A model generated the notes under the pieces. It was not told the origin of the DNA, did not search any database, and worked only from the letters and a program-made list of their open reading frames with translations. Shown piece by piece: positions 5,645-20,641 of a stretch of 64,000 nt of DNA. Position 1 is the first letter of the stretch, and every line of letters starts with the position of its first letter. The stretch comes from Bacteroides sp. (GTDB lineage Bacteria; Bacteroidota; Bacteroidia; Bacteroidales; Muribaculaceae): contig JAAVDE010000012.1 in the NCBI GenBank assembly GCA_014801955.1, forward strand, positions 168,889 to 232,888, read 5' to 3'. Both the position numbers and the translations under genes were made by a program.

Positions 5645-5868
5645 GGTAAATAGTTGAAAATTAGATAATTTTTGGTTTTGCCGAGGCATTGCCAACAGGT
5701 TTTTATAAATGAATTTTGTTTATTATTCCATTATAATTCGGGGGCAAATTTAACCATTTTTTTGTGTTTAGCAAAAATTTTTAGGAAATTTCGACAAAAT
5801 GCAGCCTTAACATCAGGCGCTTGCGCCGCCTGTGAAATTTTTATTTTTCATGTTAGGTGTTCTTTTCG

Positions 5869-5876
5869 TAACTTTG
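5869..5876 (+). promoter_or_regulatory. Bacteroidetes -7 element TAACTTTG
   Basis: Exact TAnnTTTG 27 nt upstream of the MFS start at 5904. Confidence 0.55.
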
Positions 5877-5903
5877 CAGGCAATTTACGCAATAATAACC
5901 ATC

Positions 5904-7082
5904 ATGGAAGAGAAGCTTTGGAATAAGGAGTACCTGAAAGTTATGACGAGCAATTTCCTGCTCTTTTTCGCCTTCTATCTGCTAACGCCGCTGCTGCCGA
6001 TTTATCTCGACGCGCAATTCAGCGCCGACAAACATATTATTGGCGTGGCTCTTAGCGGCTACGTTGTCGCAACACTGCTGATCAGGCCTTTTTCGGGCTA
6101 TGTTGTTGACTCGTTTAACCGCAAAACGGTTCTCAGTATCTGCTTCTTTTTCTTTTTTCTCTGCTTCGCGGGCTATATCGGCGCGGGAACGCTGCTGATG
6201 TTCGCCATCGTCAGAACGCTCCACGGCATACCCTTCGGCGCCACCACGGTTGCGAACTCAACGGTGGCCATCGACACTCTGCCGTCGTCGCGCCGCAACG
6301 AGGGCGTCGGCTACTACGGCCTGAGCAACAACCTGGCAATGGCCATTGCGCCGAGCGCCGGCATCTATCTCTACGGACTGACCAATAACTTTGAGCTGCT
6401 CTTCTGGCTGTCGCTGATTCTGGCAATGGTCGGCTTTTTCGTGACCACCCGCGTTAAGCTCCCCGCGCGCGCAAAGGTTGCCAACAAGCCCAAAATGAGC
6501 CTCGACCATTTCTTTTTGGGACGCGCATGGCTGATGGCAATCAATATCAGCCTGTTTGGCCTCTGCTGGGGCGTTATGAGCAACTATGTCGCCATCTATG
6601 GCCGCGAATCGCTGGGCATCACCGACGGCACCGGCATTTTCTTCGCCATTCTGTCGGGCGGCCTGATTCTTTCGCGCCTGTTCGGAGCCCGGCAGCTGCG
6701 CAAGGGGCGCATTGTTCAGAACTGCCTGCGCGGAGTGTGTCTGTCAACCATAGGCTTCGCGCTCTTTGCCGGCGCCTTCGGTCCGTGGAGCTTCTACCTG
6801 TCGGCGCTGCTGGTCGGACTGGGCAACGGCCAGATGTATCCGGCGTTTCTCAACATGTTTCTCAACGTTGCGCGCCATGACCAGCGCGGCACGGCCAACT
6901 CCTCCATCCTCATTTCCTGGGACCTGGGAATGGGCATAGGCATTCTGCTGGGCGGCTTCATTGCCGAATATACCGGCTACGGCGCCGCCTTCCGCCTCGT
7001 TGCCGCCGCCCAAGCCGCCGGGGCGCTGCTCTTTGCGCTGGCCACCCGCCGCTTCTATCTCGCCCGCAAAATCGAAAACTGA
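5904..7082 (+). CDS. MFS transporter
   Basis: Multi-TM protein with an MFS-like loop (RPFSGYVVDSFNRKTVL). Start MEEKLWNKEYL at 5904, just after the promoter motif. Confidence 0.88.
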   Translation: MEEKLWNKEYLKVMTSNFLLFFAFYLLTPLLPIYLDAQFSADKHIIGVALSGYVVATLLIRPFSGYVVDSFNRKTVLSICFFFFFLCFAGYIGAGTLLMFAIVRTLHGIPFGATTVANSTVAIDTLPSSRRNEGVGYYGLSNNLAMAIAPSAGIYLYGLTNNFELLFWLSLILAMVGFFVTTRVKLPARAKVANKPKMSLDHFFLGRAWLMAINISLFGLCWGVMSNYVAIYGRESLGITDGTGIFFAILSGGLILSRLFGARQLRKGRIVQNCLRGVCLSTIGFALFAGAFGPWSFYLSALLVGLGNGQMYPAFLNMFLNVARHDQRGTANSSILISWDLGMGIGILLGGFIAEYTGYGAAFRLVAAAQAAGALLFALATRRFYLARKIEN

Positions 7083-7100
7083 TTTGCGGATTTCGCGAAA

Positions 7101-7122
7101 CCGGTATTTATACTGATACCGG
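7101..7122. terminator. Possible bidirectional terminator hairpin between converging genes
   Basis: Inverted repeat CCGGTAT-N8-ATACCGG overlapping the 3' end of the methyltransferase gene; no strong T tract. Confidence 0.3.
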
Positions 7123-8067
7123 CAATCTGTTTCTTACGATAATTCTAAAATATGGACACTTACCATTCACTCTAAGATCCTTGCCATCATCTCCTTTCCG
7201 AAATCTGACAATTTCGAACTGATTGGGATTGTATTTATGCAGGAAAGTAATCGGTACTCCCATATCGCCCGCATAATCCTTAGGGATGTCTTTCGTAAAG
7301 TTTATATTTATGCCTTCGTAATTATCAAACTTGCTGTATGAGCCTTCATTCCCTTCATAGGACTTCGTCAGCTCAATTTTTTCATGTCTGACCTCAACAT
7401 CGAGATTGGTAAGCCACAAACAATTATTAGGTGATATTATCCTTTCACCATTCTCGCCTATGCTCGTTTCCGTTCCGAACAAGTCATAATAGTCCGGGAC
7501 TAAAAAGCCGGAAATACCACGACCCATGTGAACGCCAAGCCAAATTTTATTATCCTTAATAAGAGAGAAAGTCTCCCTATAAGTCAATGCGTTAATATTG
7601 GCGATGATTAAAAATAACTTCTTCTTATTCACCAAAAGATTCAGAAATTCCCTAAATAAAGAAAATGGCGGATTGGTAACGACAATATCGGAATCTTCAA
7701 GCAATTGAGTACACTCTGAGCTTCTAAAATCACCATCGCCTTTCAAATCCCTAAGTTCAACCGGGCCGCTACCGTCGTAAATGCAGTAATGGCCACAACA
7801 AGACGCCGGGCTGAACAGATCCTGTGCTTGCTTGTTGTAACATGATGCAATCAGTTTCTTTAATCCAAGCTTATGGAAATTCTGCTTAAAATATAAAAAA
7901 AAGTTGCTGCGTTCAGGGTCATCACAATTGCAATACACAACTTTACCGCTAAACGCATTCCGGTAATAAGCCAATTCTCTTTCAATATCGGGCATAAGCG
8001 TATAGAACTCATCGCTTTTTGATGACTTCGCGTTATGTAAAAGTGAATTCGAACCTTTTCTGCTCAT
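7108..8067 (-). CDS. EcoRI-type adenine-specific DNA methyltransferase (M.EcoRI family, predicted GAATTC)
   Basis: 319 aa; [60 protein letters not shown] closely resembles M.EcoRI as recalled; motif IV NPPF (DIVVTNPPFSLFREF); adjacent to an EcoRI endonuclease gene. Confidence 0.95.
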   Translation of the reverse strand: MSRKGSNSLLHNAKSSKSDEFYTLMPDIERELAYYRNAFSGKVVYCNCDDPERSNFFLYFKQNFHKLGLKKLIASCYNKQAQDLFSPASCCGHYCIYDGSGPVELRDLKGDGDFRSSECTQLLEDSDIVVTNPPFSLFREFLNLLVNKKKLFLIIANINALTYRETFSLIKDNKIWLGVHMGRGISGFLVPDYYDLFGTETSIGENGERIISPNNCLWLTNLDVEVRHEKIELTKSYEGNEGSYSKFDNYEGININFTKDIPKDYAGDMGVPITFLHKYNPNQFEIVRFRKGDDGKDLRVNGKCPYFRIIVRNRLPVSV

Positions 8068-8906
8068 TATTTATTCTTCTTTCTTAATTGCTTGAACAAA
8101 TCACTGTATATAATCTGAATTGACGTTGTTGCTATGTCATACATTATATCAAACATTTCTCTGAAGCTCCAACGTTCGCCTGTTCCCTGAGTATATATTG
8201 ATGTAGCTTGCAGCATAATAGCCTTATCACCATGATACACAAATTTATTTCTACAAAGATTAGTATTCATTGGCATGCCATAATTTGCAGCTGTCAGCCT
8301 ATCAAGCCGGTTTAACATGCTTGAATCATAGTTTAGCGTTACCTTTCGTCCGTCGGGTCGTTCAATAACAACTGTTTCAGTCAGAAAGTTGGAGCCCTCT
8401 AACAGCAAGAGGTATGGAAAATGCGACTCACCCAGCATGAGGTTGGCAATTTCCGAAATATTCTTATAGGCCCTTTCTATTGCATTGCCCGCGGCCATGA
8501 GATCTTGATCATTATGTTTACCGACTAATTTGCCCTGTCGGATATTATCAATATCTTTCCCTTGATATTTAGCTTCCGATACCAGCAGAACTCGCCATTT
8601 GTCATTGTCATCAAGAACCTCTAATAGACCACCATCAGGCTTAATATTAGACCCCGTCACGAATAAAGTTTGGCCCAAATTCGCATCTATCTCCTTTAAG
8701 GCACCATTTATCTCCTCCTTGCTAACACTCTTCCTATGCCTGAACTGCAATTGCGGGAACTCGGTCTCCAGCTGTTTCATAACAGCCTTTGCTACCTGCC
8801 CAACAGCAACATCATGCAACTTGGCTTCTTCGCCAAATATTCCAATAACTCCGTGACTTTCCGTATGTTGAGAAGTCAACCTAACTGTTTGCTTTCGTAT
8901 ACTCAT
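8067..8906 (-). CDS. EcoRI-type type II restriction endonuclease (predicted GAATTC)
   Basis: 279 aa; collinear with EcoRI over its length as recalled. IKPDGG (D91), SEAKYQGKD (E111, K113, Q115), [13 protein letters not shown] (M137-A142, R145) and [14 protein letters not shown] (R200, R203) are at EcoRI numbering. Confidence 0.96.
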
Positions 8907-8923
8907 ACCGATCTGTTTTATTG

Positions 8924-8931
8924 CAAAGTTA
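8924..8931 (-). promoter_or_regulatory. -7 element TAACTTTG for the EcoRI-like operon
   Basis: Reverse complement of CAAAGTTA, 17 nt upstream of the endonuclease start codon. Confidence 0.55.
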
Positions 8932-8985
8932 CAATTTTTTTTCGACTTTGACTGAATATTTGTTCAATTATACTGATTTTTTACT

Positions 8986-8993
8986 TAACTTTG
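8986..8993 (+). promoter_or_regulatory. -7 element TAACTTTG for asd
   Basis: Exact TAnnTTTG 35 nt upstream of the asd ATG at 9029, divergent from the EcoRI operon promoter. Confidence 0.55.
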
Positions 8994-9028
8994 CGTTGGA
9001 AAAGAATTTTTTTGACAACGTTTATTTT

Positions 9029-10039
9029 ATGAAAGTAGCAATTGTCGGCGCTTCGGGCGCCGTTGGCCAGGAGTTTCTCAGAGTGCTGGCCGAGCAGGAG
9101 TTTCCGATTTCGGAACTGCGGCTCTTCGGGTCGAAGCGTTCGGCCGGAACAACCTATGAGTTTCGCGGAAAGGAATATACGGTTCGCGAGCTAACCCACA
9201 ACAAGGCCGATTTCGAGGGTCTTGACTTCGTTTTCACCTCGGCAGGCGCCGGAGTGTCGAAGGAGTTCGCCGAAACCATCACCTCGGGCGGCGCGCTGAT
9301 GATCGACAATTCGTCGGCCTTCCGCATGGACAAGGACGTTCCGCTGGTCGTTCCCGAAGTTAACGGCGACGACGCGTTCAACACTCCCCGCCGAATCATT
9401 GCCAACCCCAACTGCACAACGATTCAGATGGTCGTTGCCCTCAAGCCGGTCAATGACCTTTCGCCCATCCGCCGCGTCCACGTCGCTTCCTATCAGGCAG
9501 CATCGGGCGCCGGAGCCTCGGCAATGGCCGAACTGGAGCAGCAATATATCGACATCGCCGCCGGCCGCGAGCCCAAGATGGAGAAGTTTGCCTATCAGCT
9601 GGCCTATAATGTTATTCCTCATATCGACGTGTTTCAGGACAACGGCTACACGAAGGAGGAGATGAAAATGTATAACGAAACGAAGAAAATCATGCACGCC
9701 CCCGACCTCGACGTGTCGGCCACCTGCGTGCGCGTTCCCGTTATGCGCGCCCACTCCGAGGCAATATGGGTTGAAACCGAGCAGCCGCTGGAGCTCGACG
9801 CTGTTCGCGCTGCCTTTGCCTCGGCCGAAGGCCTGGTCGTTATCGACAATCCGGCCAACAAGGAGTATCCCATGCCGCTGTTCACCGCCGGCAAAGACCC
9901 CGTCTACGTCGGTCGCCTGCGCAAAGACCTGACCAACCCCAACGGGCTGAGCTTCTGGGTTGTCGGCGACCAAATCAAGAAGGGCGCCGCCCTGAATGCC
10001 GTGCAGATCGCACAGTATATCATCAGCCACCGCCGGTGA
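9029..10039 (+). CDS. asd: Aspartate-semialdehyde dehydrogenase
   Basis: [26 protein letters not shown]...; catalytic context [30 protein letters not shown]. Confidence 0.96.
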
Positions 10040-11355
10040 AACAGACCAGTCAGCTGACCCAATCCCAACTGCTGCGCCAGCGCCTGCTGCCGCAGCAGTT
10101 GCGGCTTGTTGCGCTGGTTGAGAAAACCGACGAGGAGGTGGAGCAGGAAATTGCCCGCGAACTCGACGAGAATCCCGCCCTGGAGCGCGTCAGCGCCCCG
10201 CCGGTTCCGGCAGCGACGACGTCGGCCCCGGCTATCGAGCGCCCCGAAACGCCCGATTTCGACGAAACGCTGGCCGAAGCTCTGGAGCGACAGCTGGCTG
10301 AGCTGCCCGACGCGTCGCCGACCATTCGCCGGCTGGCGGCTTACATGGTTGGAGCGCTCGACGGCAACGGCTACATGACGCGCACGCTGCCTCAGCTGAA
10401 AACCGACATTGAGCTTGCAACGGAACTCCCCTTCACCGACGCCGAGCTGCGCGAGGCCTACAACCTGCTGCGCTCGCTCGACCCCGCCGGCGTCGGCGCC
10501 CAGGACCTGCGCGACACCCTGCTGCTGCAACTGCGGCGCCTCGACCCGGAGCGTCCCGAGGTTGCCGACGCCCTGGAAATCGTTCGCCACTTTTTCGACA
10601 TTTACTCGCGCCGCAGCCTGCGTAAGCTCGCCGACTATGCTGAGATGACCCCGGCGCGCGTCGAAGCCGCCGACGCCCTGGTGCGCACGCTGAATCCCAA
10701 GCCAGGAGCCGCCTATGCGTCCGATCCGACGCAGGCCCTGGCCCGCGCAGCCGTGCAGCCCGATTTCATCGTTGAAACCGACGGCAAACGCGCCTGGATT
10801 GCGCTCCCTAACTCGCTGCCCGAGCTCCGCATCGAGCAGAGCTTTGCCATCGACCCCGAGAATCCCGAAGCGGCCAAGTTCGTTCGCGACCGCCGCTCGC
10901 AGGCACTCAGCTTCATCGACGCCCTGCGCCGCCGCCAGGAAACGCTGCTGGCCATCGGGCGCGCCATCGTTGAGCTGCAGGCGCCATTTTTCACGTCGGC
11001 CGACGACGAAAGCCGCATCCGCCCGATGGTTCTGCGCCAGATTGCCGAGGCCACAGGCCTGGACCTTTCGCTGATTTCGCGCGCCGTGGCCGGCAAATGG
11101 CTGGCTACGCAATGGGGCGTTTATCCGCTGAAATCTTTTTTTAACCATCGCTCCGGCGCCGCCGACGACTCAACGTCGGCCCGCGAAATCGAGGCCGCCA
11201 TCCGCCGCCTGGTCGACGAGGAATCGACTCCGCTGACCGACGACGCCCTGACCGACGCCCTCGCCGCTATTGGCTACAAGGTCGCCCGCCGCACGGTTGC
11301 AAAATACCGCACGCGCATGGGCATTCTTCCCGCGCGCCTGCGCCATAAGCACTAA
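10036..11355 (+). CDS. rpoN: RNA polymerase sigma-54 factor
   Basis: N-terminal Q-rich region I ([38 protein letters not shown]) and C-terminal RpoN box [12 protein letters not shown] start overlapping the asd stop. Confidence 0.95.
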
Positions 11356-11363
11356 GCCGCCGC

Positions 11364-11960
11364 CTAAAGCAGCAGGCGCGCTTCGGGTCCGAGATTAAAA
11401 ATGGAATCGAGAATCGACAGGCCGGGAATGAAGCCGAGACGGTCGGCCCTCACCTGCCAGTAGGGAGCAAGCTCGAAGCCGGCGGGCTCAGTCGGGCGCA
11501 GCGCGGGATCAAAGGAGTAGCTCACGTCAACGTCGGTCAAATCGAGCGCACGGCGAACAAAACTGTCGACCGCGGCATTGAGCGCGCCAACGGAGTCGAA
11601 TCGCGCCGGGTCGGAGAGCAGCGGCAGCAGATCGGGCGCATAAAATTCAAAGAAAGGAGTGCGGCCATAGGCGCTTTCAAGCGCCGCCGGAATGGTTTCC
11701 CACCATGTTCCGTGGGTCGACAGGCGCGTCGCGGCCCACGTTCGCCCGTAGGGCTTGGCAATCGGAACGGTCAGGTCCAGCGGGCCGCGCGTGTCGGCAA
11801 TAACGAAACGATGGGCGGCCTTGCAGCGCTTGTCGAAGCGCTCGGCACAGCAAATAACAACAGGGCCGCGATGAGCGGCCAGTGCATGATAGAATGCCGG
11901 CGTCGGAGCGAGTCGGCAGGGAAGATAAAGAGTTGCAGATGGGGCAGCGGCGTCAGTCAT
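11364..11960 (-). CDS. WbqC family protein
   Basis: TLYLPCRLAPTPAFYHAL...CCAERFDKRCKAAHRFVIADTRGPLDLTVPI...TWWETIPAALESAYGRTPFFEFYAPDLLPLL. Start MTDAAAP at 11960, overlapping the ribH end. Confidence 0.8.
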   Translation of the reverse strand: MTDAAAPSATLYLPCRLAPTPAFYHALAAHRGPVVICCAERFDKRCKAAHRFVIADTRGPLDLTVPIAKPYGRTWAATRLSTHGTWWETIPAALESAYGRTPFFEFYAPDLLPLLSDPARFDSVGALNAAVDSFVRRALDLTDVDVSYSFDPALRPTEPAGFELAPYWQVRADRLGFIPGLSILDSIFNLGPEARLLL

Positions 11961-12417
11961 CGAAGCGACGGGCAAAATCGACCATAGCAATAGCCGTTTG
12001 GGCGGCTTCGATGCCTTTATGGCCGGCCGGGCCGCCGCAGCGGTCAAGAGCCTGCTGCTCGTTCAAAACGGTCAGAACACCGAAAATCACCGGCACCGGG
12101 CCGTCGGCGTTGAGCGAGGTGATGCCCTGCGTAACGCTCTGGCAAACATAGTCGAAATGGGGGGTGTCGCCCTTAATAACGCAGCCGAAAACAATAACCG
12201 CGTCGAACTGCTCGGAGTCAATGATGCGCTGAGCGGCATAGGTCAGCTCAACCGCGCCGGGAACAACAAATTCCTCAACGTCGGCGCCCGAGGCAGTCAG
12301 CGTTTCAATGGCGCCGGAAGCCAGGCGGGTTGTTATCTGCTCGTTCCACTGGGTGCGGACAACGGCGATTGCCATATCTTGTCCGCTGAGCTGCTGGGGG
12401 TTATATCCGTGGTTCAT
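11953..12417 (-). CDS. ribH: 6,7-dimethyl-8-ribityllumazine synthase
   Basis: VPGAVELTYAAQRI, VIVFGCVIKGDTPHFDYVCQSVTQGI, IFGVLTVLNEQQALDRCGG. Confidence 0.96.
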   Translation of the reverse strand: MNHGYNPQQLSGQDMAIAVVRTQWNEQITTRLASGAIETLTASGADVEEFVVPGAVELTYAAQRIIDSEQFDAVIVFGCVIKGDTPHFDYVCQSVTQGITSLNADGPVPVIFGVLTVLNEQQALDRCGGPAGHKGIEAAQTAIAMVDFARRFDD

Positions 12418-13034
12418 TTCGCAGGGTTGCAGCAGTTACGGAGTTTTTCGCCGAGCGAGCCGCCCTGATGGCGAACGGCATATTGCTCGCGGGTAAAGCC
12501 GGTTCGGAGCATCATGCCAACGATGAGCAGATGGCCGATAACGGTCATTGCGGTAATGGAGGTCGTCGGAGTCAGACCCAGGGGGCAGACCTCGGCGGGA
12601 TTTCCGGTGAAGATTCCGATAGAATCGGGAGTCTGAGCCAGCGGCGAAGAGGGCTCGGCAGTAATGACGATGGCGCGAATATCGGGATATAGCATTCGGG
12701 CGATTTCATAGAGGCGCAGAATTTCGTCGGTTCGGCCGGAGTTGGAAATCAGAAGCATCACGTCGTTGGGCTGGAGCACTCCAAGGTCGCCATGCTGAGC
12801 CTCCGCGGGATTTATACACACTGCCGGGATGCCGGTAGAGGCAAAAGTAGAGGCGATGTTAGAGGCAATCTGTCCGGCTTTACCCATTCCGGAAGCCACA
12901 ACTTTACCACCCAGGGTGCAAACCTGGTGCTGAATCAGGTCGAGAGCCGCTGAATAGTTGGGAGTTAGGGGCACAGAGGCGATTGCCTGTGCCTCAGCGG
13001 CGAGAATGTTGCTAAGGTTTTGGAGTTCGTCCAT
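12414..13034 (-). CDS. SIS-domain arabinose-5-phosphate isomerase-like protein (no CBS domains)
   Basis: KVVASGMGKAGQIASNIASTFASTGIPAVCINPAEAQHGDLGVL...LLISNSGRTDEI; 206 aa, ends after the SIS domain. Confidence 0.85.
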   Translation of the reverse strand: MDELQNLSNILAAEAQAIASVPLTPNYSAALDLIQHQVCTLGGKVVASGMGKAGQIASNIASTFASTGIPAVCINPAEAQHGDLGVLQPNDVMLLISNSGRTDEILRLYEIARMLYPDIRAIVITAEPSSPLAQTPDSIGIFTGNPAEVCPLGLTPTTSITAMTVIGHLLIVGMMLRTGFTREQYAVRHQGGSLGEKLRNCCNPAK

Positions 13035-13060
13035 TTGTGAATGCTATAGAATTTCGGCGG

Positions 13061-13068
13061 CAAAGTTA
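13061..13068 (-). promoter_or_regulatory. -7 element TAACTTTG upstream of the SIS-domain gene
   Basis: Exact TAnnTTTG on the minus strand, 26 nt from the start codon at 13034. Confidence 0.5.
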
Positions 13069-13152
13069 CGCAAAATTTCCTTAATTAGCAATTAGTAATT
13101 CGCAATTAGTAATGTCTGACGCCGAATTTAGCCATTTTGCCTCCCCCTCAGC

Positions 13153-13286
13153 TGGGAGCGACGGCGTCCCGCCGTCGGCATCTGCGACGCGAAGCCCTTG
13201 ACGCCGCTACGACGGCGAGACGCCGTCGGCATCCGCGTCGCGAAGCCCTTTGACGACCCTACGACGGCGAGACGCCGTCGCTCCCA
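13153..13286. repeat. 134-bp palindromic element with 16-bp perfect terminal inverted repeats and about 2.5 internal ~51-bp units
   Basis: TGGGAGCGACGGCGTC (13153-13168) pairs with GACGCCGTCGCTCCCA (13271-13286); CGACGGCG unit starts at 13159, 13210 and 13262. Confidence 0.85.
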
Positions 13287-13406
13287 TAAATTTTTTGCTG
13301 CCGGAGTGAACCAAATCTGGGTGGCGGGTGTTTTAATGATGTAAAGCAACTGAAAGAAGCTTTTCCATGTGTGAATGATTGTGATAATGATTGGTTTATT
13401 ATTCGA

Positions 13407-13435
13407 CGAGGAGTGACTGCGACAGCCACTCCTCG
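13407..13435. repeat. Strong intergenic hairpin
   Basis: CGAGGAGTG-A-CTG / CAG-C-CACTCCTCG, 12 bp with one mismatch and a 3-nt loop. Confidence 0.7.
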
Positions 13436-13473
13436 CCTACATTATACACCGTCGATTCTCAACGGAATGGATT

Positions 13474-13974
13474 TTAGGGAAGGGGAAATTCATGGAGGAG
13501 GCGATGGAGGGCGGCGAGGTTTTCGGGGCCGAAGCGGGCAATGGAGGCTTCGACGCGCTCGAGGGAGTGGCGCTGCATGTTGCCGGACTTGGAGTAGAAC
13601 TTGTCGGCAATGCAGATGAGGCGCTCAAGGCGCGTTTCGGGCATGTGGGGCGGAATGCCGACTCCGGTGTGGCGCTCGGCCACGCGTGCGGCCCATTCGG
13701 GCGCTCCCTCGCGGCGCAGAAGGTCGGCTCCGAGCGGGCCGTGGTTGATGTAGGGCTCGGTGCCGTTGCAGTGAATGGCGGGCGCGGAGGTCAGGAAAAT
13801 GCCGATGTCGTGGAGCATCGCGGCGGCGCGCACCTGCTCGGGGTCAAGCTCGGGAGCCGATTGGGCGCGCATCTGCTCGGCCAAGTCGGCGACCGAGAGG
13901 GCATGGCGCATATAAATATCCCGAAGGGGAGTGCCTTCGGGATAATATTTGTCGATTATAGCTTGCCAGTTCAT
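13474..13974 (-). CDS. HD domain phosphohydrolase
   Basis: YMRHALSVADLAEQM...AAAMLHDIGIFLT...HGPLGADLL...AERHTGVGI: HD-domain pattern. Confidence 0.88.
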   Translation of the reverse strand: MNWQAIIDKYYPEGTPLRDIYMRHALSVADLAEQMRAQSAPELDPEQVRAAAMLHDIGIFLTSAPAIHCNGTEPYINHGPLGADLLRREGAPEWAARVAERHTGVGIPPHMPETRLERLICIADKFYSKSGNMQRHSLERVEASIARFGPENLAALHRLLHEFPLP

Positions 13975-14996
13975 TCAATCAGGGTGTTCCAGCCGTGGGT
14001 GTCGGGGTCGTCGCCATTCTGAATGGCCTGCAGGCGATGGTAGAGCTCGGTGGTCACGGGGCCGGGCTGGCCGTCGCGGGCAATGACGTATTTCTTGCCG
14101 GTGTCGATGTCGTCGATTTCGCCGATGGGCGAGGCAACGGCTGCGGTACCGACTGCGGCGGCTTCGCTGACCTCAGCGAGTTCGTCAACGGTGATGTGAC
14201 GCTGCTCAACCTTCAGGCCCATGTCGGCGGCAATCTGCATCAGGCTCTTGTTGGTAATCGAGGGGAGGATTGATTCGGATGCGGGGGTGATGTAAACGCC
14301 GTTTTTGATGGCAATGAAGTTTGCGGGACCACATTCGTCGAGATATTTCTTCTCCTTGGGGTCGAGATAGAGAACGGCGGAATAGCCCATGTCGTGGGCA
14401 CGCTGGCCGGCGGCGATGGAGGCAGCGTAGTTGCCGCCCACTTTCCAACGGCCCGTGCCCTTGGGAGCCACGCGGTCATATTCGCGCATGATGCAGATGT
14501 TGGTGGGCTTGAAGCCGTTTTTGAAATAGGGGCCTACGGGCTGCACGAAGATGATGAACGTATATTCCGTTGCGGCCTTAACGCCGACCTGGGGGGTGAT
14601 GCCGATTTCGAGGGGGCGGATATAGAGCGACGCGCCGGAACCGTAGGGGGGCACGAAGCGGGCATTGGCCTTGACCACGCGCTTAACCATTTCGGCGAAG
14701 AGTTCTTCGGGCACCGGCTCCATCAGCAGACCGCGGGCCGAGTCGGCGATGCGGCGGGCATTTTCTTCGAGGCGGAAAACGCGGATTTTATCGTCCTTGC
14801 CTCTGAAAGCCTTCAGGCCTTCAAAACACTCCTGGCCGTAGTGGAGCGAGGTGGCAGCCATGTGGATGTTGAGATATTCGGAGGTCGATTCTTCAATCGG
14901 GCCCCATTTGCCGTCCTTGAACGTGCAGCGCACGTTAACGTCGGTAGGAAAATAGCCAAAAGATAGCTTTGACCAGTCGATTTCGGGAGTTTCCAT
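13971..14996 (-). CDS. ilvE: Branched-chain amino acid aminotransferase
   Basis: LHYGQECFEGLKAFRGKDDKIRVFRLEENARRI; GTGRWKVGGNYAASIAAGQRA; KKYLDECGPANFIAIKNG. Confidence 0.95.
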   Translation of the reverse strand: METPEIDWSKLSFGYFPTDVNVRCTFKDGKWGPIEESTSEYLNIHMAATSLHYGQECFEGLKAFRGKDDKIRVFRLEENARRIADSARGLLMEPVPEELFAEMVKRVVKANARFVPPYGSGASLYIRPLEIGITPQVGVKAATEYTFIIFVQPVGPYFKNGFKPTNICIMREYDRVAPKGTGRWKVGGNYAASIAAGQRAHDMGYSAVLYLDPKEKKYLDECGPANFIAIKNGVYITPASESILPSITNKSLMQIAADMGLKVEQRHITVDELAEVSEAAAVGTAAVASPIGEIDDIDTGKKYVIARDGQPGPVTTELYHRLQAIQNGDDPDTHGWNTLIE

Positions 14997-15022
14997 TAGT
15001 TAATAGTTTATATTGAACGCCG

Positions 15023-15030
15023 CAAAGTTA
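15023..15030 (-). promoter_or_regulatory. -7 element TAACTTTG upstream of ilvE
   Basis: Exact TAnnTTTG on the minus strand, 26 nt from the start at 14996. Confidence 0.5.
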
Positions 15031-15117
15031 CGCAAAAATTTGCTGATTCGAAAATTTGAATTAACGGCCGGGCGCTAAAAAGCGTCCGGCCGCAATTATA
15101 GGTTGTTCTAAAAAATA

Positions 15118-16719
15118 TTAGAGGGCGGGGCCAGCAACCACGAGGGCTTTGCCTGCGGGGTTGTTTTCGAACTTCTTGAAGTTGCTGATGAACTTCTCGG
15201 CGAGCATGGTAGCTTTCTTCTTCCATTCTTCGGGATCGGCGTAGGTGTCGCGCGGATCGAGAATCTTGGGATCAACGCCGGGGAGTTCGGTGGGAACGGT
15301 GAAGCCGAAGATGGGAATCTGCTTGGTGGGAGCGGTCAGGATAGCGCCGTCGAGGATAGCATCGATGATGCCGCGGGTGTCGCGGATGGAGATGCGCTTG
15401 CCGGTGCCGTTCCAGCCGGTGTTAACGAGATAAGCCTTAGCGCCCGATTTTTCCATCTTCTTAACGAGTTCTTCAGCATATTTGGTGGGGTGGAGGCTGA
15501 GGAATGCTGCGCCGAAGCAGGCAGAGAAGGTGGGGGTGGGCTCGGTGATGCCGCGTTCGGTGCCGGCGAGCTTCGAGGTGTAGCCGCTCAGGAAGTAGTA
15601 CTTGGTCTGCTCGGGGGTCAGGATGCTGACGGGGGGCAGAACGCCATAGGCGTCGGCGCTCAGGAAGATAACGTTCTTGGCTTCCGGGCCGGCAGAGGGC
15701 TTAACGATGTTCTTGATGTGGTCGATCGGGTAGCTAACGCGGGTGTTTTCGGTCACGCTCTTGTCGGCGAAGTCGATTTTGCCGTTAGCGTCAACGGTAA
15801 CGTTTTCGAGCAGAGCGTCGCGGGTAATAGCGTTGAAGATGTCGGGTTCGCTCTCCTTGTCGAGGTTGATAACCTTAGCGTAGCAGCCGCCTTCGAAGTT
15901 GAACACGCCGTTGTCGTCCCAGCCGTGTTCGTCGTCGCCGATGAGCAGACGCTTGGGGTCGGTCGAAAGGGTGGTTTTGCCGGTGCCGGACAGACCGAAG
16001 AAAATTGCGGTGTTTTCGCCGTTCATGTCGGTGTTGGCCGAGCAGTGCATGGAAGCCATGCCCTTCAGGGGGAGGTAGTAGTTCATGATGGAGAACATAC
16101 CTTTCTTCATTTCGCCGCCGTACCAGGTGTTGATGATAACCTGCATGCGTTCGGTCAGGTTGAAGGCAACGCAAGTTTCGGAGTTGATGCCGAGTTCCTT
16201 CCAGTTTTCAACTTTTGCTTTGGAAGCGTTGAGAACAACGAAGTCGGGTTTGAAGTTATCGAGTTCTTCCTTGGTGGGACGGATGAACATGTTGGTAACG
16301 AAGTGGGCCTGCCATGCAACTTCAACGATGAAGCGAACAGCCAGACGGGTGTCCTTGTTGGTGCCGCAGAAAGCGTCAACAACATAGAGGGGCTTGTTGG
16401 AGAGTTCCTTGTCGGCGATTTCCTTCAGGGCGTTCCAGGTCTGGGGAGTGATAGGCTTGTTGTCGTTTTTGTATTCCTCGGAAGTCCACCAGATAGTGTC
16501 GCGGCTGGTATCGTCCATAACGAAGAATTTATCCTTGGGCGAACGGCCGGTGTAGATGCCGGTCATAACGTTAACGGCGCCGAGCTCGGTTTCCTGGCCT
16601 TTTTCATAGCCGGTCAGTTCGGGCTTGGTTTCGTCGATAAAGAGCTGGTCCCAAGAGGGGTTGTGGAAGACTTCGGGGGTACCCGTGATTCCATACTGAG
16701 TCAGATCAATCTTGCTCAT
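15118..16719 (-). CDS. pckA: Phosphoenolpyruvate carboxykinase (ATP)
   Basis: [53 protein letters not shown]. Start [13 protein letters not shown] at 16719. Confidence 0.97.
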
Positions 16720-16792
16720 AGTTAGAGGATTACTTGAATTGTTATAGGGTTTTATTGTTTTTGAGTTTGAATTCAACCTTGTTTATCAAGTG

Positions 16793-16800
16793 CAAAGGTA
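16793..16800 (-). promoter_or_regulatory. -7 element TACCTTTG upstream of pckA
   Basis: TAnnTTTG match on the minus strand, about 73 nt upstream of the start. Confidence 0.45.
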
Positions 16801-16873
16801 TGAAATTTTTTTTGAAACGAAAAATCAAAAATCAATAAAAAATATTAATCAACCGCATCCGGCGGCGCGGCAG

Positions 16874-18940
16874 TTAGAGCATTCCGTTGTCGCTATCCTG
16901 ATTGTTGATTCGTTTCTCCCGGTGGGAATTTTTATTATTTCGGGAGAAATTCCATGAAACTTGAATCAGAATCATGGGTTTATTGCCGCGCTGATAGAAA
17001 TACTTTGAGCCGGTGGCATAGGCCGAAGCGGTTTTGAGCGTATAGAGATACTCGTTCAGCGGCTGACTCAGATCGATGCCGAATCGCAGGGATTTCACCC
17101 TGTAGGCAACCCCGAACAGGAGTGACTGCTGAGTTTTCCTTTTGCCGAAACCATAAACCAGCGCATCGGCGTTCTTATAATAGTCGAGCGAAAAATTGAA
17201 TTTCTGCAATGAATAGCTGACTCCGCCTTTGAACCACCAGGTGTGGATGCGGTTAACATAGCTGTTGCACTCCCAGTTGCCAAAGCTATAGCCGAGGCGG
17301 GGCGATATATTCAGCTTGCCGTTCAGCAGCCGGATTCTCGAACCATACGACACGTTGACCATGTCGGCCCGGTTGCCATTGACGGTTGTTGTGAAAAACC
17401 GCTCTCCATCTCTGAATATATCCTGCATCAGCGGCGAGTTTTTCCGGCTGTAGGAAACGTCGAAGTCGCCGAAGTAGCTTCCGAAGAATAGAAACGACGA
17501 AAAAGATACGTTATAGGTCTTTTCGGGCTTCAGCTCAGTATTGCCGGCCATGTATTGGAACTTGTTGTTCTGATACACTATTGAACTCGACTGACCGAGA
17601 ACCGAACCCGACATGGTTGAATTGCCGCTGACTGAAAAGCTGAGATTGCGGGTCGCGTTATATGAAAGCTGAATCTGAGGCTGCAGGTTCCACTCCCGAA
17701 CCATCTCCTCGTTCTGGTTATATGCTACATGATGCCCCTGCAGCCCGACCGTATAGTTAAACCGCCGTATGCTGCCCGACCACTCGGCAAAGACGTTGAA
17801 CGCGTGCCTGGTCTGCTTGCTTTCCGAGAACATCGTGCCGCTATATTCATTCCGGCTCTTGTTCCATGTGTGTTTCACTCCGACCGACAATTTTCCCTTG
17901 CGGATCGGCTGGATATATTGAAGCTGGCTTATGGTGGAATATTTTTTGCCGGAGCCGTAGGTCAATATGGAACTGCCCGAAGAATCGCCCGGGGAGTAGA
18001 ACTTCTCGTTGTCGTTATGAACCGTCATGTCATTGAGAACCGCATCAAAAATCAGAAGTCCCTTTGAGGCAAACTCATGCTGATAATACATATTGACTTG
18101 CGGATTCAGATCCTTTGAGCGCAACGTTTGCCGTTCGAGTTCAGTCGTTTCCGAGTCGCCTACTGATTCCTGAATGGTTGAATGCACAGTTGTTTCAGGA
18201 ACCTGCAGCCCGGATAACAGCAGCTTTGCAACAAAAAGATTGCGGTCATCCATATATGAGTAAGCCGCCGATGCCTGAAGATAATCCTCTTTCTGCACAT
18301 AAGGGTCAGACTTGTTTACCCTGCTGAGAACACTACCGTCGGCAAACTGATATGACGACACGTCAGTCAGCCTGCTATCCGAAAATCTGCCATATTCATA
18401 GTGGCCATAAACGGTAAACTCCGATTTCCTGTAGTTCGCTTTCAGCGATGCGCGATAGACTCCCTTTCCCTGATTGAGACCCTGCCGGCCACTGACATTG
18501 CCGCTCAGCCCAACGTCGGGGCGCGCAGTAAACACGTTAAGGACCACGCCTGCGTCGCCGTATCTCAGCCCGGGGGCGGTGATATATTCTATTTTGCGTA
18601 TATTCGCGGGATTAATCGCCCTGAAATCCGCCTCGGTAGCCGGAGCGCCATTAATTCTATAGGCTATCGCGCCCTTTTTCGTAGAACTCAAACTACCGGT
18701 CTTGTTATCGAGAAATACACCCGGAAGATTCATATTTCCGATGAGTTCCACCGCGTCGTTGGACCGCGCCATATCATCCGCTTCCGGAAAAAGAACGAAT
18801 CCGTCATTCTTCCGGATGATATTCGCTGCCTTCACAACGACCTCGCGAAGTTCAACGACACTGCTGCTATCTACCGGCTCCTGCGCCGAAAGCGCGAAGC
18901 CAAACAAAGCCGCTAAAGCAACGACAGGTAAGCGACCCAT
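16874..18940 (-). CDS. Outer membrane beta-barrel / TonB-dependent receptor-like protein
   Basis: Signal peptide MGRLPVVALAALFGFALSAQE; plug-like region (VVELREVVVKAANIIRKNDG; INPANIRKIEYITAPGLRYGDAGVVLNVFT); repeated barrel-like strands; no SusD partner. Confidence 0.82.
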   Translation of the reverse strand: MGRLPVVALAALFGFALSAQEPVDSSSVVELREVVVKAANIIRKNDGFVLFPEADDMARSNDAVELIGNMNLPGVFLDNKTGSLSSTKKGAIAYRINGAPATEADFRAINPANIRKIEYITAPGLRYGDAGVVLNVFTARPDVGLSGNVSGRQGLNQGKGVYRASLKANYRKSEFTVYGHYEYGRFSDSRLTDVSSYQFADGSVLSRVNKSDPYVQKEDYLQASAAYSYMDDRNLFVAKLLLSGLQVPETTVHSTIQESVGDSETTELERQTLRSKDLNPQVNMYYQHEFASKGLLIFDAVLNDMTVHNDNEKFYSPGDSSGSSILTYGSGKKYSTISQLQYIQPIRKGKLSVGVKHTWNKSRNEYSGTMFSESKQTRHAFNVFAEWSGSIRRFNYTVGLQGHHVAYNQNEEMVREWNLQPQIQLSYNATRNLSFSVSGNSTMSGSVLGQSSSIVYQNNKFQYMAGNTELKPEKTYNVSFSSFLFFGSYFGDFDVSYSRKNSPLMQDIFRDGERFFTTTVNGNRADMVNVSYGSRIRLLNGKLNISPRLGYSFGNWECNSYVNRIHTWWFKGGVSYSLQKFNFSLDYYKNADALVYGFGKRKTQQSLLFGVAYRVKSLRFGIDLSQPLNEYLYTLKTASAYATGSKYFYQRGNKPMILIQVSWNFSRNNKNSHREKRINNQDSDNGML

Positions 18941-18959
18941 TGATTGATTGATTGATTGA
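18940..18959. repeat. Tetranucleotide tract (TTGA)5 on +, (TCAA)5 on -, overlapping the start codon of the downstream gene
   Basis: Five perfect copies at 18940-18959; the minus-strand ATG at 18940-18938 overlaps the last copy. Confidence 0.9.
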
Positions 18960-18990
18960 GAAGAGATTGCATATTCTTACTTCTTATGGA

Positions 18991-19716
18991 TTAATGATTG
19001 GAGGCGGGAGCGGAATGGCCGCCGGCGGGGCGAGGGCGGGGGGTGGTGGCCTGGAACTCTTTCAGGTAGAGGGGCACGGAGTAGGCGGGGTCGAGGAAGT
19101 CGCCGGCGCGGAAGGCTTTTTCGCTCAGGGCGAGCATGTCGGCTGCCAGCGGCTGAACGCCTTCGACCCAGCGGGCATTGGGGTGGTCAATCACGGTGCG
19201 TGCCTTTTCAACGGCGTTGCCCATGAAGAGCAGCGGCCCACGGTCGAGCAGCTCGCGATAGCTGTCGGGAGTCAGAATCAGCGGCTGGGTGGGCATCAGT
19301 TCTTTGAGCCACATGTCGAGCACGCAGGTGTAGACTTCCATGCGGCGGGCGTCGATCATCGGCGCGAAGCGGCTGTTGAGGTCAATGCCGTGGTGGTTGA
19401 ACATAACGTTGGTTGCCATGATTTGCAGCGTAGGCACTCCGATGAGAGGGAGCCCCAGGGCGTAGGCGAGGCCTTTGGCTTCGCTCAGGCCGATGCGCAG
19501 GCCGGTGTAGCTGCCCGGGCCGAGGCTAACGGCGATGGCGTCGAGCTTGCGTTCTTGTTTTTTGGCTTCGTCGAGCGCTTGGGCAATGAATCCGCTGAGC
19601 AGCTCGGCGTGGCGGCGGCCGGTTCGGTCTTCGAAGTTGGCGAGCACGGAGCAGTCGCCGGTCAGGGCCACCGAGCAGGCCTCGGTGGAGGTTTCTATGT
19701 TAAGGATGTTAGCCAT
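18991..19716 (-). CDS. tsaB: tRNA threonylcarbamoyladenosine biosynthesis protein TsaB
   Basis: MANILNIETSTEACSVAL...; SGFIAQALDEAKKQERKLDAIAVSLGPGSYTGLRIGLSEAKGLAYAL. Confidence 0.94.
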   Translation of the reverse strand: MANILNIETSTEACSVALTGDCSVLANFEDRTGRRHAELLSGFIAQALDEAKKQERKLDAIAVSLGPGSYTGLRIGLSEAKGLAYALGLPLIGVPTLQIMATNVMFNHHGIDLNSRFAPMIDARRMEVYTCVLDMWLKELMPTQPLILTPDSYRELLDRGPLLFMGNAVEKARTVIDHPNARWVEGVQPLAADMLALSEKAFRAGDFLDPAYSVPLYLKEFQATTPRPRPAGGHSAPASNH

Positions 19717-20641
19717 TGTTGTTATTATCGTTATCGTAGAGTTTAAGGGTTTCGCGCAGGCGTTCGGCCAGCATGGTCTTGAGCTCCGGGGGCGCAATAA
19801 CCGTAACGTCGGGGCCGAGGCTCATCAGCTCGCGCAGAAAGTCGGGGGTCAGAAGGAGTTCGTAGGTGAAGATAGAGAAGTCGTCGTGGATCATTTCCTG
19901 CTGCGAGGGGTGGAGCGGCAGGGCGCGCAGATATTTTGCCTGGCGGGAGTCGGTTCGCAGGGTGACGCGCCGCGGTTTCTGGCGGTCAACAACGATGCCG
20001 AAGCTATAGCGGAAATACTCCTTGGGGTCAAACGTAGGCGGCATAATGAACGGCGTGCTGGTCAGCGTAGGCTCGGAAATGCGGTCGAGGGCATAGGTTT
20101 TGATGCGACCTTCGGCAACGTTGCGGCCGGCAACGTACCAGCGCTGACGAAACAGTTTCAGCAGATATGGCTCCAGCTCAATGCCGCGGGTTTCCACGGA
20201 GCGACTGAACGGATGGTAGTCGAAGCGCACGACCCGTTCGTTTTTTATCGCCTCGATCATCGGCGCCAGATTCTGGCGCGCGGAGGGAACGTGTTCGAGA
20301 AATATGCGGTCGGAAATCGAGCGCGCATCGGAGAGCATGCCGCTCATGGCGGCGGAGTTGAGCAGCCAGTCGGTAACGGAGTCGCCGCCCCCCGGGGCCG
20401 AGGTGTCGGAGTCGCCGCTGATATAGTATTCGTCGGTCGAGGGGTCAAACAGAATCTCAACGCCGAAGAGGTCGGCAACGGCCTGGCGGTAGTTATAGAA
20501 GGTGCGCCGGCGCAGTTCCGACCCGTTGCCAACGGTTGAGTCCATCCAGCGGCGGTTGATTTCGGCGCGCGTCATGCGGCCGGTGCGACGCAGGGTGTCG
20601 ACCAGCCAGGTGTATTTCGAAAGTAGCGAGCTGCCTCCCAT
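19709..20641 (-). CDS. WYL domain-containing transcriptional regulator
   Basis: N-terminal HTH-like region; WYL-like core FRQRWYVAGRNVAEGRIKTYALDRISEPTLT. Confidence 0.88.
   Translation of the reverse strand: MGGSSLLSKYTWLVDTLRRTGRMTRAEINRRWMDSTVGNGSELRRRTFYNYRQAVADLFGVEILFDPSTDEYYISGDSDTSAPGGGDSVTDWLLNSAAMSGMLSDARSISDRIFLEHVPSARQNLAPMIEAIKNERVVRFDYHPFSRSVETRGIELEPYLLKLFRQRWYVAGRNVAEGRIKTYALDRISEPTLTSTPFIMPPTFDPKEYFRYSFGIVVDRQKPRRVTLRTDSRQAKYLRALPLHPSQQEMIHDDFSIFTYELLLTPDFLRELMSLGPDVTVIAPPELKTMLAERLRETLKLYDNDNNNNG

Follow-up and report, generated by a model that had tools for sequence, protein, structure and literature searches.

A very likely horizontally acquired EcoRI-family restriction-modification pair in a Bacteroidales chromosome

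The endonuclease family of EcoRI includes RsrI from Rhodobacter sphaeroides and LraI from Lactococcus raffinolactis, which are proven GAATTC isoschizomers (PMC4081073, PMC5896346). RsrI shares 50% identity with EcoRI and cleaves G^AATTC as EcoRI does (PMC4081073, PMC5896346). As of 2018, REBASE held 526 putative EcoRI-like proteins, which are widespread over phyla at 50-70% identity (PMC5896346). An EcoRI-type pair was also published in 2017 for Prevotella intermedia ATCC 25611. Strain 17 of this species lacks the pair, and GAATTC is unmethylated in ATCC 25611, where the pair is presumed to be inactive (PMC5608340). Here we examine two adjacent genes, R and M, in a 64,000-nucleotide stretch (the window) of contig JAAVDE010000012.1 from a member of the Muribaculaceae. 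This locus very likely represents a complete, horizontally acquired Type II restriction-modification system of the EcoRI family, in which R would cut and M would methylate GAATTC and both would be expressed from one operon.

The R gene (8067-8906, minus strand) encodes a 279-amino-acid EcoRI-family Type II restriction endonuclease. It scores 447 bits against the Pfam profile PF02963 (EcoRI; cut-off 22) and covers the profile completely (positions 1-257 of 257). The solved EcoRI chain 2oxv_A matches residues 1-277 on 1-277 with an E value of 1.6e-120. With the E. coli plasmid pair (L019) as the reference for R and M, a global alignment of R with EcoRI yields 187 identical residues of 277 (67.5%), 90 substitutions, and no internal gaps. 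The catalytic residues D91, E111, and K113 of the PD-(D/E)xK site are the same in both proteins and carry the same numbers (Met = 1). This is also true for Q115, M137, A138, A139, G140, N141, and A142, and for E144, R145, R187, R200, and R203, such that all 15 catalytic or recognition positions checked are identical. Among the aligned family members, D91, E111, K113, Q115, G140-N141, R145, R200, and R203 are invariant where present. Position 138 is variable, and the recognition residues are otherwise nearly invariant. At this level of identity, the fold of R is already given by the solved EcoRI structures.

The M gene (7108-8067, minus strand) encodes an EcoRI-family adenine methyltransferase of 319 amino acids. 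This protein scores 388 bits against PF13651 (EcoRI_methylase; cut-off 26.4) over profile positions 2-305 of 345, and is identical to M.EcoRI of the reference pair at 201 of 318 residues (63%). The NPPF catalytic motif is present as TNPPF, as in M.EcoRI. A sequence search for a relative of M with a solved structure returned none. PADLOC labels the two proteins REase_II (R) and MTase_II (M). An earlier, sequence-only reading of this DNA had placed the two open reading frames at these same positions, had described their products as collinear with EcoRI and M.EcoRI, and had listed catalytic and recognition residues of R at their EcoRI numbers. Each of these observations is borne out by the profile matches and alignments. 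Judged from these comparisons, the likeness of both proteins to the EcoRI pair cannot be due to chance.

Both genes are intact, with no frameshift or premature stop, and are located on the same strand with R first. They overlap by one base, with the ATG of M positioned on the stop codon of R (TAATG). At all 16 loci that carry an EcoRI-type M, R likewise precedes M, and the two genes either overlap slightly or are separated by a short gap. A TAACTTTG element located 17 bases upstream of the R start (8924-8931, minus strand) is the probable −7 element of the promoter for the pair. A second TAACTTTG element (8986-8993, plus strand) belongs to the divergent asd gene, lies outside the cassette, and marks its right edge. 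Both elements fit the pattern TAnnTTTG, which we take to be the Bacteroidota −7 promoter consensus. This pattern occurs 38 times in the window compared to 18.6 expected, which is an excess to be expected of a Bacteroidota genome, and SusC/RagA genes near the locus likewise point to this phylum. Transcription of the pair probably starts at a promoter of the Bacteroidota type immediately before R. A scan for sigma-70 promoters gave fewer matches than chance, and the sigma-70 pattern is unsuited to Bacteroidota. At the opposite end of the cassette, a weak terminator-like hairpin (7101-7122, plus strand; one such hairpin found versus 1.6 expected) overlaps the last codons of M and marks the left edge beside an MFS transporter gene.

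In the proposed mechanism, R and M would be transcribed as a single operon in that order. R would act as a homodimer that uses D91, E111, and K113 to cut unmethylated GAATTC between G and A. M would transfer a methyl group from AdoMet to the N6 position of the inner adenine (GAm6ATTC) and thereby protect the host. Together, the proteins would defend the host against phage and plasmid DNA, and the pair may also hold itself in the genome, as do other Type II systems, by making its own loss harmful. We infer expression, cleavage, methylation, exact specificity, and defence for this pair. It is conceivable, although doubtful, that the pair has adapted to Bacteroidales, as its host-type promoter and one-base gene overlap would reflect, and has shifted biochemistry, such as altered star activity or temperature optimum, while GAATTC recognition has been kept.

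The alternative that best survives is that the pair is intact but silent in this organism, either unexpressed or inactivated outside the residues checked, and is a recent passenger. The unmethylated state of GAATTC in P. intermedia (PMC5608340) favours this possibility, and is the main caution against assuming that the window pair is active. A locus in a different genome of this family (L025, on G170:C11) also fits this reading. There, two in-frame stops break R (2319-1492), and the adjacent M (1471-494) has an open frame from end to end, as would be expected from decay of R with retention of M, or from an assembly error. Moreover, avoidance of the GAATTC site is not specific to carriers of the genes. 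The window's genome contains 250 GAATTC sites in 2.136 Mb, the lowest of 11 genomes from the genus, and the window itself has six compared to 22.7 expected. However, a genus-mate that has no match to the family (G097) contains 271 sites in 2.2 Mb. Ratios of observed to Markov-expected counts, taken from samples of 380-520 kb with G042 left out, are 0.71 for the window's genome, 0.70 for G097, 1.12 for G062, and 1.31 for G158. Because GAATTC is equally scarce in G097 without the genes, we rejected site avoidance as a proxy for activity, and it gives no independent support to an active pair. Nevertheless, the open reading frames without a frameshift or stop, the retention of all key residues, and the host-type promoter element upstream of R argue against a silent pair, and we consider it unlikely.

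Several other palindromes are depleted as well in a sample of approximately 522 kb from the window's genome (L056-L079 plus the window). Relative to Markov expectation, TTTAAA (3 versus 50), GATATC (21 versus 86), and CTTAAG (10 versus 49) are far scarcer there than GAATTC. Additional restriction specificities may act in this genome.

The pair is very probably specific for GAATTC, because R is 67.5% identical to EcoRI and retains every named contact residue. This identity is well above that between the proven isoschizomers EcoRI and RsrI, which further supports the same site. The sequence-only reading had arrived at GAATTC from the residues it named, and this assignment follows strongly from the identity and the contacts combined. 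The 90 substitutions in R could be taken to favour a related site other than GAATTC, as exemplified by MunI, a member of the wider fold family that recognizes CAATTG and has low similarity to EcoRI (PMC5896346). This is very improbable given that the named recognition residues are all identical and that EcoRI and RsrI share GAATTC despite being only half identical (PMC5896346, PMC4081073).

The cassette is located between the MFS transporter gene (5832-7082, plus strand) and asd (9029-10039, plus strand), which rpoN follows. The GC content is 0.41 for R and 0.39 for M, and the GC3 of both is approximately 0.41 compared to 0.65-0.79 for neighbouring core genes. An EcoRI-family match was sought in 10 other genomes of the genus and found in none of them; four of these are less than 90% complete and five are at least 94% complete, most at 98-99% or better. 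In G137 and G158, whose asd genes are closest to that of the window, tsaB directly adjoins asd without an insert, and the MFS gene adjoins pckA. In the window, tsaB is located about 9 kb from asd, on the opposite strand and beyond pckA, and the MFS gene flanks the cassette at its other end. Thus, positions 5832-20641 are rearranged relative to these two genomes, with the tsaB-asd and pckA-MFS neighbours split apart, and the cassette is positioned at a site of altered gene order. The orientation of the MFS gene relative to pckA is not the same even between G137 and G158. The low GC and GC3 values, the lack of a match among genus-mates, and the adjoining tsaB and asd genes in G137 and G158 together indicate that the cassette was horizontally acquired. 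Integrase or insertion-sequence boundaries were considered and rejected, because a search for flanking direct repeats, a mark of mobile elements, revealed none around the cassette beyond short chance-like pairs, and the neighbours are the MFS gene and asd/rpoN.

A contaminated or chimeric contig carrying a cassette from another organism in the metagenomic bin would fit the sharp G+C drop and the draft state of the genome (45 contigs, 84% complete, 2.8% contaminated), but is the least probable reading of all, since the contig is 243,720 bases long and has host core genes on both sides of the cassette, the gene is also present in six further genomes from the same family, and restriction-modification genes are commonly A+T-rich compared to their hosts.

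An EcoRI-family R is present in seven of 199 genomes of the same family (including that of the window), which represent seven of the 30 genera sampled, and exceeds the cut-off in two further genomes in a phylum sample of 399. Relatives of R occur in an uncultured Alistipes MAG (70% identity) and in Flavobacterium covae (66%), as well as in records from Clostridia, Lentisphaeria, Anaerolineaceae, Bifidobacteriaceae, Succinivibrionaceae, and Myxococcales. Plasmid-borne relatives are found in Escherichia, Klebsiella, Raoultella, Rhodococcus, Staphylococcus, Leuconostoc, and Acinetobacter. A relative with more than 60% identity is also encoded in two phage or virus records. Viral contigs L142-L158 encode distant EcoRI relatives that match part of the query at 31-32% identity. 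The sequence-only reading had stressed the distance between this phylum and the source of the textbook enzyme, but in the records searched the family already spans Bacteroidota plus at least six further phyla. The novelty of the window pair is small in view of the same-family genomes, Alistipes, F. covae, P. intermedia, and plasmids from multiple phyla. It is an ordinary new member of a family that has previously been recorded in many phyla.

In the R tree, the window protein is placed beside the Alistipes R with modest support (90/85), whereas M is placed elsewhere in the M tree, and therefore we claim no source lineage. Both trees have little supported structure near the window, which is consistent with frequent transfer. 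A second branch of EcoRI-family R proteins, mostly from Clostridia (L004-L007, L009, L011, L014-L017), is partnered with an unrelated N6_N4_Mtase (PF01555; four scanned) and has no adjacent EcoRI-type methylase. This methylase is usually upstream of R, for example at 5032-5973 of L005 beside R at 5995-6834. Two changes suffice to explain the methylase partner type on the R tree. The second branch resembles RsrI, whose methylase belongs to the beta class.

In practical terms, DNA intended for transforming this host should be GAATTC-methylated. The locus adds one more case to a scattered, horizontally spread family and one data point on how restriction-modification cassettes settle in chromosomes, and opens no new question.

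Compared to EcoRI of the E. coli plasmid (PDB 1ckq, 2oxv; NZ_OW967970), the window proteins have lengths within 2-7 amino acids, the same R-then-M order, the same catalytic and recognition residues, and the identities given above for R and M. The E. coli genes reside on a small mobilizable plasmid and are 29 bases apart, whereas the window genes are chromosomal in Bacteroidales, overlap by one base, and, unlike E. coli EcoRI, carry a host-type promoter element. The other Bacteroidota pairs, from Alistipes (L002), F. covae (L003), and six genomes of the same family, have R proteins 64-72% identical to that of the window, and the loci read show the same R and M families in the same order. In P. 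intermedia, M is 51% identical to M.EcoRI and, by its coordinates, is located upstream of its R (PMC5608340). M.RsrI belongs to the beta class of N6 methyltransferases (PMC5173035), a different family from that of M.EcoRI, whereas the window M is of the EcoRI type.
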